NCBI GenBank assembly: GCA_016744315.1
Contig: JADGER010000006.1
Span: forward strand, 1-37,996
DNA from: Sulfurovaceae bacterium
GTDB lineage: Bacteria; Campylobacterota; Campylobacteria; Campylobacterales; Sulfurovaceae
Direction of reading: 5' to 3'
Length of the DNA: 37,996 nt
A program made the translations under genes and the position numbers. Position 1 is the stretch's first letter; every line of letters starts with the position of its first letter. The notes under the pieces were generated by a model, which saw nothing but the letters and a program-made list of their open reading frames with translations, was not told the origin of the DNA and made no database searches. Below, piece by piece: positions 560 to 10,052 of this stretch.

Positions 560-1456
560 ATGTTAGATAAAAAAGAGTTACTCGAAGAGATTGAGATATT
601 TGAGAAATTAGATATTATCTATATTTTAGAAGTCTTACAAAATAAACTTGATGATAATAATGAAATTAGAGCAGATAAAACTATAGAATTAGATAGTAAT
701 ATGATTGAGACTATTAAAGAACTGTTATCTGCTCTAGTAAGACATAGCGATAATTTTAGAAAAATTTTCAATTTGGCTTTAGTGGAGATAGATAGTTATA
801 ATAAAGTTGCTAATATTGATATTGAAGATACAAATATTTCTAAAGAAAATATTGAGTTTTTATATGCTTTATTAAAAAACATAGCGTTAAATCATCAAGG
901 CTTTGGCGATAATGTTGCAGGAGATAAAACCACTCATAATACTAATAGTGTAAATATTAGTGGTTCTAACTCAGGAGATATAATCATCAACACAAAAGAT
1001 ATAGATTATGCGTCTAAGTTAAAAAACATACTCTCTAATCTACCTATAGGTAATATCCTATTTAATGCACCCAAAAATATTTCATTGAATGAGTCAAAAA
1101 AAGCAATTTTACGAATCTCGAAACAAAGTATTGATATAAGTAATTTACCACAAAACAATCAACAAATAGAAGAAAAATTAGAAATATACTCTTTTATGTC
1201 TGCAAAACTGATGAGCTTTGATTTTGATATTATGAATAATAATCATGAAGAACAAGCTATTGGTGAAAAAGACTTTACAGAGTGGTCATGGTATATTACT
1301 CCTAAGATACAAAAAGATAAAGGAGTGCTTTTACTTCGTATTAGCATTAGGATACCTTTAGACAAAAATAAAGAAGAGAAAAAAGATTTACCTCTATTTG
1401 AAAAAAATATAGATATTTTAGTTAAAGAAGATAAAATACTAGAAACAGGAGAATAA
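560..1456 (+). CDS. Adaptor-like protein: N-terminal helical region, central GDN-type motif, C-terminal beta-rich domain
   Basis: 298 aa ORF starting 9 nt after the CHAT stop. Central 'HQGFGDNVAGDKTTHNTNSVNISGSNSGDIIIN'. C-terminal 'FTEWSWYITPKIQKDKGVLLLRISIRIPL...KKDLPLFEKNIDI' looks like a beta-sandwich. Confidence 0.7.
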   Translation: MLDKKELLEEIEIFEKLDIIYILEVLQNKLDDNNEIRADKTIELDSNMIETIKELLSALVRHSDNFRKIFNLALVEIDSYNKVANIDIEDTNISKENIEFLYALLKNIALNHQGFGDNVAGDKTTHNTNSVNISGSNSGDIIINTKDIDYASKLKNILSNLPIGNILFNAPKNISLNESKKAILRISKQSIDISNLPQNNQQIEEKLEIYSFMSAKLMSFDFDIMNNNHEEQAIGEKDFTEWSWYITPKIQKDKGVLLLRISIRIPLDKNKEEKKDLPLFEKNIDILVKEDKILETGE

Positions 1457-1459
1457 AAT

Positions 1460-2440
1460 ATGAGTGAAGAGCGATATAAAATTTTTTCAATTAACCCAGA
1501 TGATAAAAATACTCAAATGGATGTCATTTTTATCCATGGTTTAGGTGGTGACAAGTATTCAACATGGCAAAATTCAAATAATGAATCATGGCAAAAGTGG
1601 TTAGCCAAAGATTATAATGTATCAGTTTATTCTATAGCTTATGGTGCAAATATGACTAATTGGGATGAAGATGATATGAAACTCGATGAAACAGCTGATT
1701 TTTTCTTAAGTTCATTAAAAAGTGAAGGTATAGGAGATAAACCTTATATGTTTGTAGTGCATAGCTTAGGAGGATTGCTAGTAAAGAATATTTTATTAAA
1801 AGCACAAAATAGTAAAGATTATAAATACTTATTGGATATGTGTAAATCTATTGTTTTTTTTGCTGTTCCTCATAGTGGGTCAGGATGGGCAACTCTATTG
1901 AATTATGGGAAAGTATTATTAAGAAGTAGTAATCTATTAGAGTCATTATCTAAAAATACACAAGACCTCCATAACTTAACTACAAACTTTAATCAATTGA
2001 TTATTAATAATAAGATTGAAACTTATGTATTTTATGAAACCAAAAAGGTAAAAATAGAAAAAATAATAGGCTTTAAAAGTATAGTTGTAGTCAGTAGAGA
2101 AAGTGCAACGATTGTACATTCAACTAATCAAGTTATTCCACTACCTAAAGACCATATTACTATCTGTAAAATTGATGATAGAGATGATGACTTATATAAG
2201 CATAAAATAAAAAGTATTATGAATAAAACTATAGAGATAAATCAAGTATCAACTCAAAAAGAGTCTCAATCAGATGAACAAAATAATTCATCTACTACTA
2301 CATCCATTCATTATGGTTCTGGAGATATTATTACAGGAGATAAAGTTACTCATAATAACAATAGTGTTAGTATCGGTGGTTCAAATTCTGGTAGTATTGT
2401 AATAGGAAATAATAATAAGGTAAATAAAAATGGAAAATAA
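1460..2440 (+). CDS. Alpha/beta hydrolase (lipase/esterase-like) with C-terminal GDII-type motif
   Basis: 'DVIFIHGLGGDKYSTWQ' oxyanion region, 'VVHSLGGLLVKNILL' nucleophile elbow, 'DHITIC' candidate catalytic His; C-terminal 'HYGSGDIITGDKVTHNNNSVSIGGSNSGSIVIGNNNK'. Confidence 0.88.
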   Translation: MSEERYKIFSINPDDKNTQMDVIFIHGLGGDKYSTWQNSNNESWQKWLAKDYNVSVYSIAYGANMTNWDEDDMKLDETADFFLSSLKSEGIGDKPYMFVVHSLGGLLVKNILLKAQNSKDYKYLLDMCKSIVFFAVPHSGSGWATLLNYGKVLLRSSNLLESLSKNTQDLHNLTTNFNQLIINNKIETYVFYETKKVKIEKIIGFKSIVVVSRESATIVHSTNQVIPLPKDHITICKIDDRDDDLYKHKIKSIMNKTIEINQVSTQKESQSDEQNNSSTTTSIHYGSGDIITGDKVTHNNNSVSIGGSNSGSIVIGNNNKVNKNGK

Positions 2441-4496
2441 AGAGATACACCCAAAGCATTATGGTACTGGTGATATTATTTTAGGTGATAGACATGAACA
2501 CCATCATCAAGCCCCTCATATAATCCCCAGAGTCTTAACCAAACAAGTAGGTCTAGCCAACGATATAGACTTCGTAGGGCGAAAAAATGAGCTACAAAAA
2601 GTAGATGAGCTTTTAAATCAAAACGCTATGTTGCTTCTGCTCAATGGTATTGGAGGTATTGGTAAAAGTACATTAGCATCCTATTATCTTAATCAAAAAA
2701 AAGATGAGTTTGATTATTATGGTTTTGTGCAGGTTAATGAAGATATAAAACTAAGTCTTGCTTCTGCTTTTTCTACTTCTCTCGATTTAAAATCAGAAAA
2801 AATTGATGATTTGTTTGCTGAAATAATGAGTAAGCTCAATAATTTAGATAAAAATAAAAAAAAGCTTCTTATTATAGATGATGTTAAAGAGATGGATAAT
2901 CAGAAAGATGAAATAAATACTCTTATGACACTTAAAAATAATGGTTTTCAAATTTTATTCACTTCACGAGAGGTTAAAGATAATATTAAAAATTATCCTT
3001 TACCTATGATGAATGAGGGAGATGCTAGAGATTTATTTTTGAAACATTATGATACGGATGATATAAATAATATTGATATTATTGTAAAAGAGTATTTAGA
3101 TTATCATCCATTATTTATTGAAATGACAGCAAAAACATTATCTTTAAAAAGAAGATTATCACTTAACGAAATTATAAAAAAATTTGAAAGTGAAGAATAT
3201 CAAGTAGTAAAAAGAGATGATATTGAAAGTTACCATAAGTTTTTGGATAATTTTTCTATGAATGACCAAGTTTTACAAAATGAAGAAACACTATTATTTA
3301 TAAAAAAGTTAGCTTTATTACCGTCTATCGAAATTTCTTTTGAGGAGTTGTATAAGTTTTTAGTTTGTGATAATAAAGATAATAAAGATAAATTAGATAA
3401 TTTTTTAATTAAACTTATTCGCAACGGTTGGTTAATTGAATTTAAAGATGGATATAAATTTCATCAAATTTTACGAGATTATATTTTAGAGAGATATAAA
3501 CCTAAATTTGAAGAGATTGAAAAGCAAATAGATTATTGTATATATTTAACAAAAGATAGTTCAGATCCTCAAAAAGCTTTGGACAACAGAGATAATTTAA
3601 TTTATTTTAAATCTATCTTGGCATTTATTGAGAAAGAAGAAATCAAAAATCAAAAAACAGCTACTATATACAATAATTTTGGACTTACTTTTAACTATTT
3701 AAATGAGCCTGATGAAAAAATCATCAGATTATATGAAAAATCTTTAAAAATAAGAGAAAAAATAGAAAATAAAAATACAGCTGAAACACTTAATAACTTA
3801 GCAGGAATATATAGTTTCCTTAAAAATTATAGGGAAGCACAGCTATTTCATTTTAAAGCTTTAAAAATAAGAAAAAAGTGTAAACTTGAAAATGAAATAG
3901 GTTCAAGTTATAATAATTTAGGTGTACTCCTTTACAGAAAAAAAGAATATCATAAATCAAAATTATTTTGGTGTAAATCTATACAAATATGGGAAGGTTT
4001 ACGAGGTAAACTAAATAAGGATTCTAAAGAATTACCTAATCTAAATAGTTTACTGGCTAAAGCTCATGATAACTTAGGAGTATTGTATAAAGTAACTGAA
4101 GAAGTAAGTTCAGTTGAAATTATAAAATTACATGAAAAAGCTTTAAATCTAAGAATAGAATCTTTATCTGAATGGCACATTGATAAGGCTTCAAGCTATA
4201 AAAAATTATCGGACTTATATTTTGAAGAAAAGAATTTTGAAAAATCTTTTGAGTTTATACAGGAATATATAAAAATATATGAAGAGAATTTTCTAAAAAG
4301 TGGTTCTAAATTAGTTGAGGTAAAAGATAGCTTCAAGAAGAGCGTCTTAAATTTATTTCATCAATATCAAGATAAGAATATCTCTATAGGCATAGTTGAT
4401 GAAAGTTTTAATATAGATAGAGAAGATGTTTTGGCTCTTTTCAAAAAGCATGATATAAATTCGGTCGATTCTGAATTAGAAGAGTTTAACAAATAA
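2430..4496 (+). CDS. NB-ARC/STAND NTPase with TPR repeats (NLR-like) and N-terminal GDII-type motif
   Basis: N-terminal 'HYGTGDIILGDRHEHHHQ'; 'FVGRKNEL', Walker A 'GIGGIGKST', Walker B 'KLLIIDDV', 'ILFTSRE', winged-helix-like 'KLALLP...' region, C-terminal TPRs. Overlaps the preceding CDS by 11 nt. Confidence 0.88.
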   Translation: MENKEIHPKHYGTGDIILGDRHEHHHQAPHIIPRVLTKQVGLANDIDFVGRKNELQKVDELLNQNAMLLLLNGIGGIGKSTLASYYLNQKKDEFDYYGFVQVNEDIKLSLASAFSTSLDLKSEKIDDLFAEIMSKLNNLDKNKKKLLIIDDVKEMDNQKDEINTLMTLKNNGFQILFTSREVKDNIKNYPLPMMNEGDARDLFLKHYDTDDINNIDIIVKEYLDYHPLFIEMTAKTLSLKRRLSLNEIIKKFESEEYQVVKRDDIESYHKFLDNFSMNDQVLQNEETLLFIKKLALLPSIEISFEELYKFLVCDNKDNKDKLDNFLIKLIRNGWLIEFKDGYKFHQILRDYILERYKPKFEEIEKQIDYCIYLTKDSSDPQKALDNRDNLIYFKSILAFIEKEEIKNQKTATIYNNFGLTFNYLNEPDEKIIRLYEKSLKIREKIENKNTAETLNNLAGIYSFLKNYREAQLFHFKALKIRKKCKLENEIGSSYNNLGVLLYRKKEYHKSKLFWCKSIQIWEGLRGKLNKDSKELPNLNSLLAKAHDNLGVLYKVTEEVSSVEIIKLHEKALNLRIESLSEWHIDKASSYKKLSDLYFEEKNFEKSFEFIQEYIKIYEENFLKSGSKLVEVKDSFKKSVLNLFHQYQDKNISIGIVDESFNIDREDVLALFKKHDINSVDSELEEFNK

Positions 4497-4522
4497 ATGA
4501 AGATATTTATCAAAGCTATATT

Positions 4523-6814
4523 ATGACCAAACAAATAAACCTACCCCAACTAATCAAAACCTCAACCGATGAAACATTCAGAACAAACCTAAAAACTGTT
4601 GTAGAAAAAAATGTCCCTTTTGGTGAGAGATTGACACTTTATAATCATATCGCAAATAGTATATATACTGATGGTTATACTGTTTTTGCTATCTTTGCTT
4701 GGGAGCTTGGGTTGGATTATCTTGATAGTGATGAGATAGATGGTGTTTTAAAGGCTGATTTGCTTAGGAGTTATGGTTTGGCTTGGATGGAGTTAAATCA
4801 TTTTGATTTATCTATAGAGTATCTCAATGAAGCTATGGAGTTTTTAGATAATCGTGATGATGGGATATTGATAGATATATATTTTGGTCTCTCTATCGTA
4901 TATAAGCATTTGACTGATATGCCAAAAGCCATTGAGTATGCTAAAATGGCTACCCACACTGCTAAAAAAATGAATGATGACTTTGAAATATCAAGAGCTT
5001 ATCTAAATACAGGGAATTTACTCTCTAAGACAAATAGATATGATGAAGCCCTAGAGAATTATCAAAATGCTTTAAAGTATTCTACTATGGATGAAGTCAA
5101 ATCCAATGTTTTGATGAGTTTGGGGCTTTTATATAAAAACACAATGGAGTATCAAAAAGCCAAAGAGACCTTTGATGAGGCAGAGAGACTTTTTAAGAAA
5201 CTAAAATTTGTCAATGAGATGTTTGAGCTTTATATTAACTATGGCATACTCTATACCAAACTAGCAAAGTTTGATAATGCAAAAGAGTATCTTCAAATGG
5301 CATTGGACTATTTTGAAGAGATAGATGATAGTTATAATATGACCATTTGCTATCTAAATCTAGGAAGAGTAGAACAAGATAGAGCTAAATTCTCTACATC
5401 TTTGAAGTATTTTAATAGAGGTGTTGCACTTTGTAATAGTGATGATAATCTTATCTCTTTGGCTTCTCTTTTGTATTATAGTAGAGGAAATATATTTTTA
5501 TCTCTCAAAGAGTATAAGAAGGCTTCTAGTGATTATCAAATCGCTATACAATATGCAAAAGAACAAAATGATACTTCTATGGAGGCTTCTATTAAAAATG
5601 CTTTGGCAGGACTTGAAGCAGATAAAGGAAATATTGATACAGCACAAAAACTCTATCAAGAGATTTTGGAGGTGTTTCAAAAAGATAATAATATTGAAGA
5701 GATAGTGGCTACTTATACAAATATGGCACTTTTATATGAAGAAAAGGCGATGCATCAACTCGCTCATAAAGCATATACTAAAGCTCTTAATTTAGCTCAA
5801 ACAATTGATATACCACAGTTAGAAATATCTATACTTATCAATATGGCTGAGATGTTTGCTAGTATTGCAGATAGTCACAAAGCAATTGAACTCTATAATC
5901 AAACCTTTGAGCTACTAGAAAATTATGACAATGATGATTTACTCTCAAAGTGCTATTTAAATTTGGCTAATATATATGAGAGTATTACAGAGTTTGATTT
6001 GGCTCTTAAATATGCAAAACTAGGACTAGCACTTAAAGAGAAGTTGGGATATGATGATAAGTCACTCTATATCATTTATGATTCATTGGCTCGTATTTAT
6101 GATGGGCTAAAACAAGAAGAGGAAGCTGAGAAATATTACATCAAAACACTTCAAAGTGCAAAAGAGTATAACCCATCACACTATTATGGAATGTTAGTGA
6201 ATTATGGTCTATTTTTGTTTAAATTCAAAGAAGATATTCTAGGTGCAATAGAGTGCTATGACAAGGCAAAAGCCTATTTTGAAAAACATCAAAAATATGA
6301 AACACTTATCGCTATCAATAGTAATTATGCGATGATATACGAGTCTCAATCACAAAGAGAAGATGCCATAAAACACTACAAAAAAGCACTAGAGTATGCT
6401 GATATATTTATCTCTTTTATAGAAGATGAAAACATTATGATGAAATATAGAATTAACTTTGAACATATATACGAAAATTTAGTACAACTCTATATCCAAA
6501 AAAAATCATACAAAAAGGCTTTTGAAACCATAGAAAATCTAAAATCAAGAACCTTTTCAAAGATACTCTCCTCAAACTATTTCCACTCAAATAAAATCCC
6601 AAAAAATCTTTTGGCAAAAGAGAAAAAGCTCAAAAAGGAGTTAAATCAAATACTTTCTAATGATTTAGATATAGTAAATCTCGATAGTATGCTCCAACCC
6701 ATCTATAAAGACTTAAGCAATCTCTATACCAACATGAGAAAGATTGATACAAATTATGTTTTAATCAAAGAGAATAGTATATTAGGGTTTGATAGGATTA
6801 AGGGTGTTTTATAG
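4523..6814 (+). CDS. TPR-repeat protein resembling the TPR half of a TPR-CHAT protein, lacking the CHAT domain
   Basis: Many TPR units. C-terminus 'FETIENLKSRTFSKIL...YVLIKENSILGFDRIKGVL*' resembles the linker that precedes CHAT in TPR-CHAT proteins; the ORF then stops. Confidence 0.8.
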   Translation: MTKQINLPQLIKTSTDETFRTNLKTVVEKNVPFGERLTLYNHIANSIYTDGYTVFAIFAWELGLDYLDSDEIDGVLKADLLRSYGLAWMELNHFDLSIEYLNEAMEFLDNRDDGILIDIYFGLSIVYKHLTDMPKAIEYAKMATHTAKKMNDDFEISRAYLNTGNLLSKTNRYDEALENYQNALKYSTMDEVKSNVLMSLGLLYKNTMEYQKAKETFDEAERLFKKLKFVNEMFELYINYGILYTKLAKFDNAKEYLQMALDYFEEIDDSYNMTICYLNLGRVEQDRAKFSTSLKYFNRGVALCNSDDNLISLASLLYYSRGNIFLSLKEYKKASSDYQIAIQYAKEQNDTSMEASIKNALAGLEADKGNIDTAQKLYQEILEVFQKDNNIEEIVATYTNMALLYEEKAMHQLAHKAYTKALNLAQTIDIPQLEISILINMAEMFASIADSHKAIELYNQTFELLENYDNDDLLSKCYLNLANIYESITEFDLALKYAKLGLALKEKLGYDDKSLYIIYDSLARIYDGLKQEEEAEKYYIKTLQSAKEYNPSHYYGMLVNYGLFLFKFKEDILGAIECYDKAKAYFEKHQKYETLIAINSNYAMIYESQSQREDAIKHYKKALEYADIFISFIEDENIMMKYRINFEHIYENLVQLYIQKKSYKKAFETIENLKSRTFSKILSSNYFHSNKIPKNLLAKEKKLKKELNQILSNDLDIVNLDSMLQPIYKDLSNLYTNMRKIDTNYVLIKENSILGFDRIKGVL

Positions 6815-6872
6815 GTTTAAAACCATCTATGCTAGGAGAGGTGATATATGACTTAGTTTTATTCAAATAGTT

Positions 6873-8882
6873 CTAGCTTGGTACTATCTTCATATTTCTA
6901 AACAACTCTACAAAAAAACCATCAGGTATCATAGCCAAAATATGATAAGCAGTGAAGAAGAGAGTAATAAGTGCTGAATAAAACTGTACTTTTTTTAAGC
7001 TATATATTTTTGCTCCCCATTTATCACCATAGTTTGAATATTTCTTTCTATAAATTAAGATATGACTAAAGCTTATCATAAATAGAATAGTAATCATAGC
7101 AAAAAGAAAATTTGTAATATGCCATATCCCAAAGTTATCAGGATAAGCAAAAAATATTGTTTTGAATGTTGAAGGAAGTTCAAAACCTTCCAAAAGTTGT
7201 GGAAAAAATAGAGGCAAAAAAGTACAAATGAAAACAATTATCAAAGAGTAAACAAACATCAAATAATTTTGAGGAAGTGTTGTTTTCTTTTTCATTTTTT
7301 CAGTTAAATCAGCTTTTTCTGAGGGGATTATAAGCCAAAGAAGTGGTAAGTATATCCATGCAGTTGATTTAATAGAATATCTAAATAAAATCACAGGAAT
7401 AAAAACAGCAAAGAGGAACAAAAAAAGTGTAATTATATCAATAAGTTTCACTATTATCTCTAGCTCTCCATTCGATTCTCTAACCAAAGTATTTATAGAT
7501 TTATTAATAAATTTACTAGTTTTATATTTAGAATTTGTTTTTGATATGCTTGGCATAAGCTCAATGGGATGAAAAATATCAGTAGAAAAAGTTATTTTAT
7601 ACCAATTATTTGGGATCTTATTAATAGATCTCAATGAAAAACTTTTAATAGTTGTAAAGCTTTTTAAGATCCAAATAGGTAGATGAAAGGCTAATAAAAA
7701 TGATACTAGTATAATACAAAAAAAATTATAGTTATTTTTTTGCTTTTCTATCATTTCAGTTGGAGTTAGAATATAGAGATTATTATACCATATAGGTAAA
7801 TATTCTTTTAGTAAATAATCTTGAGGTAAAGAATTTTTTGGAAAAAATATTTCACAAAAAAGATAATAAAAGTCAGTATTAGTGATTATATCTATTATTA
7901 TAAGAATTAGAAAAACTGTCAAACCAAGAATTAATGCTGTACTTAAATGATATTTCTCAAAAAGTGCTAATCCATAATTATCTGATTTCTCTGTTCTCAA
8001 TAAAAACAAAGGAGCAACAATTAATCCAATAATAATATGCCAATAAAAATCATAAGTAAACCAAACATAAAAAGAAATACTTACAGCCAATACCGTCTCT
8101 ACCAATGCTAAAACCGAAAACTGCAACTTATCAGCACTCTCTACCGAGCTTATCCATACTTTATCTTTGAATATCTCTTTGGAAAGTATATTGGAGTTTT
8201 CACTTCGCAAAGCTTCTTGTAAAGGTTTAAAATACTCAACTACCTTTTGAATCGGTATCATAGATTGGGCATCTATCATCACCCCACTAATACCTCCACT
8301 ACTTATATCCCATAGTGGAGTACCACTAAAGCTATTGGCTATAATAGACTTTTTGTCTATGGTAATTTGTTTTTTGCTTTTGGATAAATTACCTTTATAA
8401 CTCCCCTCTATCCAATCATTTATTTGACTATCAAACCCACAAGCGACAAACTCTTGTCCATAGTCAGCAGTCGTGACAAGTGGAATATTAAAAGGTTCTT
8501 CACTCTCTATCTCTAATAATGCAATGTTGTGGATGGAATTAGTCTCGACCACTTTAGCTTTAAATTGTAATTGAGGTTCACGCAGGGCAAAGGTGACATT
8601 TAGAGTCTCAAAATTGGCGATGTTCTCATAGGTAGTGATGATGTAGTTGGAGGTGATTAAAAATCCACTCCCTATAACCTCATTATCACCATTATAAATA
8701 GAGACGATGGAAGCGTTATAGATGTCAGGAATGGAGATATTACTATCTCTTTTATGGTAGATATTGGTTACATTATAGTTTTCATAGTAGTTTTCAGCAT
8801 AGATGGTGCGTTGATTATTGTGTATGACTTTATCACCTGTGATATTGTCACCACTCCCACTATGATTTGATGAATTTTCCAT
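6873..8882 (-). CDS. Degenerate trypsin-like peptidase domain fused to a multi-pass membrane region, with N-terminal GDN-type motif
   Basis: N-terminal 'NHSGSGDNITGDKVIHNNQRTIYAENYYENYN'; trypsin-like 'GSGFLITSNYIITTYENIAN', 'HNIALLEIES', 'NSFSGTPLWDISSGGISGVMI'; then numerous hydrophobic helices. Confidence 0.8.
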   Translation of the reverse strand: MENSSNHSGSGDNITGDKVIHNNQRTIYAENYYENYNVTNIYHKRDSNISIPDIYNASIVSIYNGDNEVIGSGFLITSNYIITTYENIANFETLNVTFALREPQLQFKAKVVETNSIHNIALLEIESEEPFNIPLVTTADYGQEFVACGFDSQINDWIEGSYKGNLSKSKKQITIDKKSIIANSFSGTPLWDISSGGISGVMIDAQSMIPIQKVVEYFKPLQEALRSENSNILSKEIFKDKVWISSVESADKLQFSVLALVETVLAVSISFYVWFTYDFYWHIIIGLIVAPLFLLRTEKSDNYGLALFEKYHLSTALILGLTVFLILIIIDIITNTDFYYLFCEIFFPKNSLPQDYLLKEYLPIWYNNLYILTPTEMIEKQKNNYNFFCIILVSFLLAFHLPIWILKSFTTIKSFSLRSINKIPNNWYKITFSTDIFHPIELMPSISKTNSKYKTSKFINKSINTLVRESNGELEIIVKLIDIITLFLFLFAVFIPVILFRYSIKSTAWIYLPLLWLIIPSEKADLTEKMKKKTTLPQNYLMFVYSLIIVFICTFLPLFFPQLLEGFELPSTFKTIFFAYPDNFGIWHITNFLFAMITILFMISFSHILIYRKKYSNYGDKWGAKIYSLKKVQFYSALITLFFTAYHILAMIPDGFFVELFRNMKIVPS

Positions 8883-8964
8883 CCTCTATACTCTCCCATT
8901 TGATTACTCTAATTGTACCTACTTATGATAAAAGCTTTTGAGAGGTAGATTTACATTTTGTTGC

Positions 8965-8970
8965 TATAAT
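8965..8970 (+). promoter_or_regulatory. Candidate -10 box (TATAAT) upstream of the second hydrolase
   Basis: Exact TATAAT 29 nt upstream of ATG 9000 in the divergent intergenic region; no convincing -35. Confidence 0.4.
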
Positions 8971-8999
8971 AGAATTTAATTTTTGATTAAAGGGTAGAG

Positions 9000-10052
9000 A
9001 TGAGCGAACGATATATAATTGAAAAAATAGCAAAGAAAGATAATGGAGATTTTGATGTAGTTTTTATCCATGGGTTGGGTGGAGATAAATTTACAACATG
9101 GCAAAACTCAGAAGGACGATCTTGGCAAGATTGGTTGGTACATGATAATGAAAATATGTCAGTTTGGACTATAGGCTATGGAGCTAATAAAACCAATTGG
9201 ATTGAAGATGATATGTCTTTGGATGATACGGCAGGTTTTCTATTGGGGTCATTACAAAGTAAAGGTATTGGAGAAAAGCCTTATATGTTTATTGTGCATA
9301 GTCTTGGTGGGCTATTGGTCAAAAAAATCCTGCTTAAAGCACAAATAAGTGATGAATATGAAAATATTTCAACCATGTGTAAATCTATCATCTTTTTTGG
9401 TGTACCACATAATGGTGCAGGATGGGCATCTTTGTTTAATTATGCTCAAACATTTTTGCGAACGAGTGATGTATTTCAGGCACTCTCAAAAGATACAAAC
9501 TCTCTTCATCAATTGGCACTTGATTTTAATACTCTAGTGAGAAAAAATAAAATTAACACTTATGTATTTTATGAGACCAAGGAGATCCGTGCCAAGGGTT
9601 TACTTGGTTGGTTACATCTCAAAAAAGGAATAAAAGTTGTGAGTCAGCAGAGTGCCACACAAGTACACTCTACTAACACACCTGTAGCAGTCCACCAAGA
9701 CCATATTTCCATGTGTAAGCTTGAACCAGAATTTTATCAAACTCATATATTACCAATTATGAAAAAAGAACATCCTCAAAAAGAGAAGGAAAAACAATCA
9801 CAACAAGAAAGCAATAACCCTAACAATATATCAAATACAACGACTATCACACAAACACATTCAGGAAAGGGTGACAATATAGGTGGTAATAAAATCGTCA
9901 ATAATAATGGTATCTCTATAGGTGGTAATAATACGGGTGCAGTTGTGTCGGGTGATGCTAACAGTGTCACAATAGAGAACAATGAACGCAAGATTGATGC
10001 GAAGAATTATTTTGAGAAGATTGATAATAATGGTAGTATGAATTTTGATTAA
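9000..10052 (+). CDS. Alpha/beta hydrolase paralogue with C-terminal GDN-type motif
   Basis: 'DVVFIHGLGGDKFTTWQ', 'IVHSLGGLLVKKILLKAQ', 'DHISMCK'; clearly paralogous to 1460..2440. C-terminal 'HSGKGDNIGGNKIVNNNGISIGGNNTG...ENNERKIDAKNYFEKIDNNG'. Confidence 0.88.
   Translation: MSERYIIEKIAKKDNGDFDVVFIHGLGGDKFTTWQNSEGRSWQDWLVHDNENMSVWTIGYGANKTNWIEDDMSLDDTAGFLLGSLQSKGIGEKPYMFIVHSLGGLLVKKILLKAQISDEYENISTMCKSIIFFGVPHNGAGWASLFNYAQTFLRTSDVFQALSKDTNSLHQLALDFNTLVRKNKINTYVFYETKEIRAKGLLGWLHLKKGIKVVSQQSATQVHSTNTPVAVHQDHISMCKLEPEFYQTHILPIMKKEHPQKEKEKQSQQESNNPNNISNTTTITQTHSGKGDNIGGNKIVNNNGISIGGNNTGAVVSGDANSVTIENNERKIDAKNYFEKIDNNGSMNFD

Follow-up and report, generated by a model that had tools for sequence, protein, structure and literature searches.

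Five proteins encoded in a Sulfurovaceae genome share a short Gly/Asn-rich motif, which is probably a signalling module acting in trans to connect immune-type sensors with effectors encoded by separate genes. The stretch analysed, hereafter the window, comprises 37,996 nucleotides (contig JADGER010000006.1 of assembly GCA_016744315.1, positions 1 to 37,996 of the forward strand). Comparison of sequences from the window and from other bacteria gives good support for a role of the motif in linking the two halves of split systems. The motif-bearing genes are as follows:

560-1456, + strand: adaptor, 298 amino acids, helical N-terminal part, no known domain; central motif at 893-988 (+), HQGFGDNVAGDKTTHNTNSVNISGSNSGDIII, His at nucleotide 893
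1460-2440, + strand: hydrolase 1, a DUF676-type alpha/beta serine hydrolase (PF05057, E = 2e-6; HGLGG, S102 in HSLGG, H232); C-terminal motif at 2309-2404 (+), HYGSGDIITGDKVTHNNNSVSIGGSNSGSIVI, His at 2309
2430-4496, + strand: STAND protein (NB-ARC PF00931, E = 1e-12; TPR_12, E = 7e-21); diverged N-terminal motif at 2457-2510 (+), HYGTGDIILGDRHEHHHQ, His at 2457
6873-8882, - strand: trypsin-like protein (PF13365, E = 2e-6) with about eight membrane segments predicted from hydropathy; N-terminal motif at 8814-8864 (-), HSGSGDNITGDKVIHNN, His at 8864
9000-10,052, + strand: hydrolase 2, a paralogue of hydrolase 1; motif near the C-terminus at 9858-9947 (+), HSGKGDNIGGNKIVNNNGISIGGNNTGAVV, His at 9858

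Motif copies and their distribution

All five copies reported by a first-pass annotation of the window were found in the open reading frames (ORFs) it had named, with the adaptor copy beginning 3 nucleotides earlier (893, not 896), and their placement varied as it had stated: the adaptor copy is central, the hydrolase copies lie towards the C-terminus, and those of the STAND and trypsin-like proteins are N-terminal. Its description of the carriers as five otherwise different proteins was correct in part. The two hydrolases are 53% identical paralogues, so the independent attachments number four: the adaptor, the DUF676 hydrolase, the NB-ARC-TPR STAND and the trypsin-like membrane protein. A longer block of about 33 amino acids (…NNNSVSIGGSNSGSIVI), with alternating V/I strands after the motif (SVSIGGSNSGSIVI), is common to the adaptor and the two hydrolases and missing from the STAND and trypsin-like proteins. 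HYG[ST]GDII is common to the STAND and hydrolase 1 motifs.

The refined consensus was xIxQxHxGxGDN[VI]xGDK. A profile of the five copies returned these five sites, clustered within 9 kb, and no others in the 2.54-Mb genome at E < 1e-6; the next-best match had E = 0.09. With a hidden Markov model (HMM) built from other phyla only, E-values were 3e-8 for the trypsin-like protein, 1e-7 for the adaptor, 8e-6 for hydrolase 2 and 3e-4 for hydrolase 1, and none of 13,485 reversed ORFs reached 14 bits.

Among one genome per species, the DNA pattern GxGDN[VIM]xGDK was found in at least 109 stretches, and the extended consensus was present in about 80% of the encoded matches among those listed. The motif occurs in at least five phyla. 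Whole-genome searches identified it in 4 of 398 Campylobacterota genomes (this one included), 2 of 399 Pseudomonadota genomes, each holding one adjoining pair and nothing else, and 1 of 297 Bacteroidota genomes, which together make seven positive genomes among about 1,090. HMM and pattern searches indicated that the motif is concentrated in STAND, Roco and TPR-GreAB-C-PIN sensors and the effectors adjoining them. Its sensor carriers comprise NB-ARC-TPR, NACHT, nSTAND1, TPR-GreAB-C-PIN (GapS6b) and Roco proteins, its effector or adaptor carriers DUF676 hydrolase, HetE-N (GapS6a), TIR, PNP_UDP, EAD1 and EAD11 proteins, and TPR proteins carry it as well. The first-pass annotation had allowed that the motif might be generic low-complexity sequence with no enrichment near STAND and effector genes; it proved rare, specific and cross-phylum. 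Five viral contigs and no phage records held it in the viral and phage collections, and a literature search for the motif string returned nothing relevant.

Two further groups of carriers were observed. In Streptomyces, a family of about 341 amino acids with no Pfam match has the motif at its extreme C-terminus (…YHGTNQHWGGGDNVAGDKR; L011, L013, L100 and about 14 other loci), with no motif partner alongside. In six cyanobacterial loci (L032, L043, L044, L077, L101 and L118), Roco (LRR-Roc-COR) or other proteins end in the motif and are followed by small proteins that begin with it, often as GDKVMGDKI repeats, and that have a helical C-terminal part.

Paired genes, split systems and GapS6

About 20 adjoining gene pairs carry the motif at the C-terminus of the upstream protein and the N-terminus of the downstream protein, and in all but one the genes overlap or lie no more than about 11 bp apart. 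Among the upstream members are HetE-N, TIR and EAD11 proteins as well as small unannotated ones; the downstream member is a GapS6b, NACHT, NB-ARC-TPR or TPR protein. The same layout is seen in the window for hydrolase 1 and the STAND protein, whose genes overlap by 11 bp.

Motif identity within pairs exceeded that of shuffled partners for all 21 pairs (p = 2e-5), for GapS6-like pairs only (p ≤ 0.004), and after exclusion of the window pair and the most diverged one (p = 2e-4); in the strictest subset it was p = 0.009, so that p ≤ 0.009 held in every subset. Partners also deviate jointly from the consensus, as shown by GDNVARDK in both genes of Pantoea SO10, GHNVY/GHNVF in the two Pseudoalteromonas genes, and GDII in hydrolase 1 and STAND of the window. 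Because the upstream and downstream copies diverged long ago, common descent alone should not favour same-locus pairs; such matching should be expected from concerted change or a pairing constraint.

A comparison of PIN-TPR-GreABC proteins, gathered without reference to the motif, distinguished split from fused systems. In Pseudomonadota, seven fused proteins (1288-1469 amino acids) have a longer N-terminal part, which on inspection of the sequence resembles a restriction-endonuclease-type domain, and their genomes contain no motif. Two short proteins (1082 and 1103 amino acids) have the motif and a motif-bearing upstream gene. Six plasmid relatives, collected by homology of the protein body, are without exception split systems: in five of them both genes bear the motif, and the two genes of the sixth share a diverged variant. 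With the diverged pair counted as negative, both genes bore the motif in 7/8 split versus 0/7 fused systems (Fisher p = 0.0014, on small numbers of 8 versus 7). As a universal rule, the restriction of the motif to split systems was rejected: it holds for TPR-GreAB-C-PIN and fails for cyanobacterial Roco proteins. The TPR-GreA/B-C-PIN section of Kaur et al. 2021 (PMC8195603) describes effectors fused to the system, and within that section a shared motif is not mentioned.

GapS6a ends with the motif and GapS6b begins with it. Both are anti-phage families by NCBIfam name (NF047935 and NF047936), and GapS6 is said, on the strength of that name and of GMT/GAPS work, to protect against phage. Among 5,426 complete E. 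coli genomes the pair was found in 22; in one (NZ_AP027822.1; L196, 5157-8783), gapS6a/b adjoins dsdC and is accompanied by genes for a recombinase and a tyrosine integrase, a setting that resembles a mobile element. The last 20 or so positions of the Pfam HetE-N (PF20701) and NCBIfam GapS6a (NF047935) profiles are the motif itself, so weak matches to these models can reflect the motif alone. Hydrolase 2 matched only these positions of the two models, one at E = 0.013 and the other at E = 0.32, both below the cut-off, and no window protein matched GapS6b (NF047936 or PF20698). The window locus was thus rejected as a GapS6 system, because it has no GapS6b and the match is confined to the motif portion. 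A PF20698 profile search in cyanobacteria gave no matches and was uninformative.

Gene content of the window

The hydrolases share a nucleophile elbow and a catalytic His (HSLGG and KDHI in hydrolase 1, HSLGG and QDHI in hydrolase 2); the PF05057 score of hydrolase 1 (27.8) is above the cut-off of 20.3 and that of hydrolase 2 (14.9) below it. The AlphaFold2 (AF2) model of hydrolase 1, compared by Foldseek, shows an alpha/beta-hydrolase fold in coarse outline, and its motif-bearing tail is of low confidence (predicted local distance difference test, pLDDT, 54). Related hydrolase domains begin an NB-ARC protein of Gloeothece, serve as the effector of an ABC-three-component system, and occur also in an AAA-like protein and a TPR protein. 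None were found in 249 other Campylobacterota genomes, which suggests that the window locus was probably imported.

The STAND protein has the NB-ARC NTPase plus repeats that define the class, with Walker A GIGGIGKS at residue 73 followed by TPR. The adaptor had no relatives in Pfam, NCBIfam or PDB and was absent from 60 genomes of the family, and its AF2 model was unusable (pLDDT 44). Its C-terminal part is related to a Paraburkholderia plasmid protein: the beta-rich domain has a relative in a membrane-anchored Paraburkholderia caribensis protein (L176:4803-5516).

The first-pass description of the fourth protein as protease-like needs correction: judged from alignment and sequence inspection, the catalytic His and Asp positions are replaced and Ser is kept, both in the window protein and in a relative. 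This relative (L161:534-2402, - strand) is a 58.7%-identical counterpart with an N-terminal motif, encoded in a genome of the same family from another genus. In it the motif and pseudo-trypsin module are fused to an nSTAND1 NTPase (E = 1e-99); in the window version they are joined instead to membrane segments. Given the lost His/Asp and the nSTAND1 fusion, the trypsin-like protein might serve as an additional sensor or as an anchor. The earlier proposal of several effectors around a single STAND sensor is therefore only one reading of the locus and is not established, because of this possible second sensor and because the contig begins inside the locus. Two further genes lie in the locus:

2-550, + strand: C-terminal half of a CHAT-domain protein (PF12770, E = 1e-27, profile positions 128-289), 5' end lost at the contig start
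4523-6814, + strand: TPR-repeat protein, 763 amino acids

The motif was seen in neither the CHAT fragment nor the TPR protein. CHAT is a common partner of repeats like those of the TPR protein; no CHAT domain was found in that protein or in any frame just past its stop codon. The trypsin-like protein (-) and hydrolase 2 (+) form a divergent pair after it. Ten genes scanned downstream, at 14-36 kb, were ordinary (polysaccharide synthesis, transport, respiration).

Proposed mechanism, alternatives and precedents

In the proposed mechanism, a trigger sensed by the TPR region would cause the NB-ARC-TPR STAND to oligomerise, thereby clustering its N-terminal motifs. These would then capture, or act as a template for, the corresponding motif in the flexible tails of the DUF676 hydrolases; the adaptor and the trypsin-like protein anchored in the membrane might be drawn in as well. 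Once clustered, the hydrolases would become active and attack membrane lipid or some other essential ester or thioester, which would stop phage spread. We infer direct homotypic binding between motifs, hydrolase activity and phage defence by the window locus. The form of the assembly is a guess: we suppose, with rather more doubt than confidence, a beta-arch or amyloid-like stack.

Several observations weigh against a signalling module of this kind. Charged residues (D, K, H) occur in the motif core, whereas fungal amyloid motifs are poor in charge. Of the five copies, that of the STAND protein is the weakest, and it is marginal with the other-phyla HMM (E = 1.9) because it has diverged (GDIILGDR). 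In cyanobacterial Roco proteins the motif is retained even in fusions to a following domain, so linking in trans is not its only use. The adaptor has no known domain or assignable role, and the motif-bearing STANDs of two Sulfurovum loci (L159 and L160) have no motif partner alongside.

A specifically amyloid form of the same idea, in which the motif is a functional prion and the N-termini of oligomerised STAND proteins form a beta-solenoid seed by which effector tails are converted, after the manner of HET-S/NWD2 and sigma sesA/sesB/het-eN, is conceivable but doubtful. The architecture is the same as that of the fungal sigma locus (PMC3321046), the motif is G/N-rich with alternating V/I strands after it in the adaptor and hydrolases, AF2 leaves the motif tail of hydrolase 1 unfolded, and the motif-bearing PNP_UDP effector belongs to a type used in fungal amyloid signalling (PMC9815663). 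Besides the charged core, it is opposed by the lack of any match to Pfam models of known fungal amyloid motifs and by GapS6a, where the motif ends the protein and no second strand follows; the motif could just as well form a soluble beta-arch dimer. Rather than contacting its own kind, the motif could be a docking tag for a common third partner such as a chaperone, scaffold or membrane site. This fits the tolerance of N-terminal, internal and C-terminal placement and the presence of the motif in the window on a membrane protein and an adaptor besides sensor and effectors. Within-pair co-variation and joint deviation are not expected from a fixed common receptor, however, and the fused TPR-GreAB-C-PIN proteins lack the motif, which makes such a tag unlikely.

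Spread of the copies by recent duplication or gene conversion within the locus, with no shared function, is very improbable and already largely refuted. Although the hydrolases are paralogues, and hydrolase 1 and STAND overlap and both have GDII, the motif follows the same pairing rule in unrelated genes of at least five phyla and persists in the homologous protease-like protein of another genus (L161). An RTX-like calcium-binding beta-roll repeat or generic G/N low-complexity tail is scarcely credible. GxGDNVxGDK superficially resembles GGxGxDxUx and cyanobacterial copies repeat GDKVx, but no RTX/hemolysin Pfam match was found, and low-complexity or chance origin was rejected in view of the few positive genomes, the specificity of the motif and the empty reversed-ORF control. 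Membership in the known fungal sigma, PP or HET-s motifs is likewise unsupported: NACHT_sigma, Ses_B and HET-S motifs exist as Pfam models (PMC8086366), and the Pfam fungal amyloid models gave no match to whole window proteins at E ≤ 1 or to motif segments at E ≤ 10.

For the signalling module that we favour, the nearest precedent, as an apparent parallel in working, is the sigma locus of Nectria haematococca (sesA, sesB, het-eN; Daskalov et al. 2012, PMC3321046). There the alpha/beta hydrolase SesB, with a C-terminal motif, adjoins a STAND with an N-terminal motif, and motifs are more alike within the cluster than between orthologues. Both place a G/N-rich motif at the C-terminus of a hydrolase effector and at the N-terminus of the adjoining STAND. 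In both, more than two effectors can accompany a STAND, NB-ARC or NACHT domains are combined with TPR or different repeats, motifs resemble one another more closely within a cluster, and fused as well as split alternatives exist. They differ in that the sigma motif consists of GxGxQFNxx and GGTQNINT in three repeats, whereas one core copy of the consensus is present here, and in that the window is bacterial and its adaptor and membrane trypsin-like protein also carry the motif.

The nearest bacterial class, by description, appears to be BASS1-10, G-rich motifs of 20-40 amino acids at effector C-termini and adjacent bacterial NLR N-termini, whose hosts include cyanobacteria and actinobacteria (Bell effector/NLR pairs, Dyrka et al. 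2020 as cited in PMC8086366, PMC12261475 and PMC9815663). The likeness, compared by description, lies in the positions on effector and adjoining sensor. BASS were defined on Bell effectors, whereas the effectors here are DUF676, HetE-N, TIR, PNP_UDP and EADs; no Bell model was named in any domain match, and the small unannotated partners could be Bell-like. GapS6a/b and TPR-GreA/B-C-PIN systems have the same motif on both partners and exchangeable effectors; the window differs from GapS6 in having an NB-ARC-TPR STAND as sensor and hydrolases as effectors. EADs are also non-catalytic modules common to effectors and sensors of one locus, with proposed homotypic contact, but are folded domains of about 80 amino acids, whereas this motif spans about 20 and stands beside EAD1 or EAD11 in some proteins.

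A wider reading, on which we are nearly evenly divided but lean towards caution, is that this is an uncatalogued cross-phylum "address" motif whose variants encode partner specificity. The same effectors (hydrolase, HetE-N, TIR, PNP_UDP, EADs) would plug into different sensors (NB-ARC, NACHT, nSTAND1, TPR-GreAB-C-PIN, Roco), GapS6 would work through the motif, and the window, with five members, would be the most elaborate locus of this analysis. If the motif works as proposed, receptor-effector signalling through shared short motifs, a principle of fungi and of Bell/NLR pairs, would extend to several immune architectures of bacteria at once, and a DUF676 hydrolase/STAND pairing like that of fungal SesB/STAND would exist in bacteria. 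GapS6 would gain a mechanism, including the reason for its two genes and how GapS6a and GapS6b communicate. A motif of about 12 residues with clear mutants makes the proposal directly testable, and its profile could find unannotated partners of defence genes.

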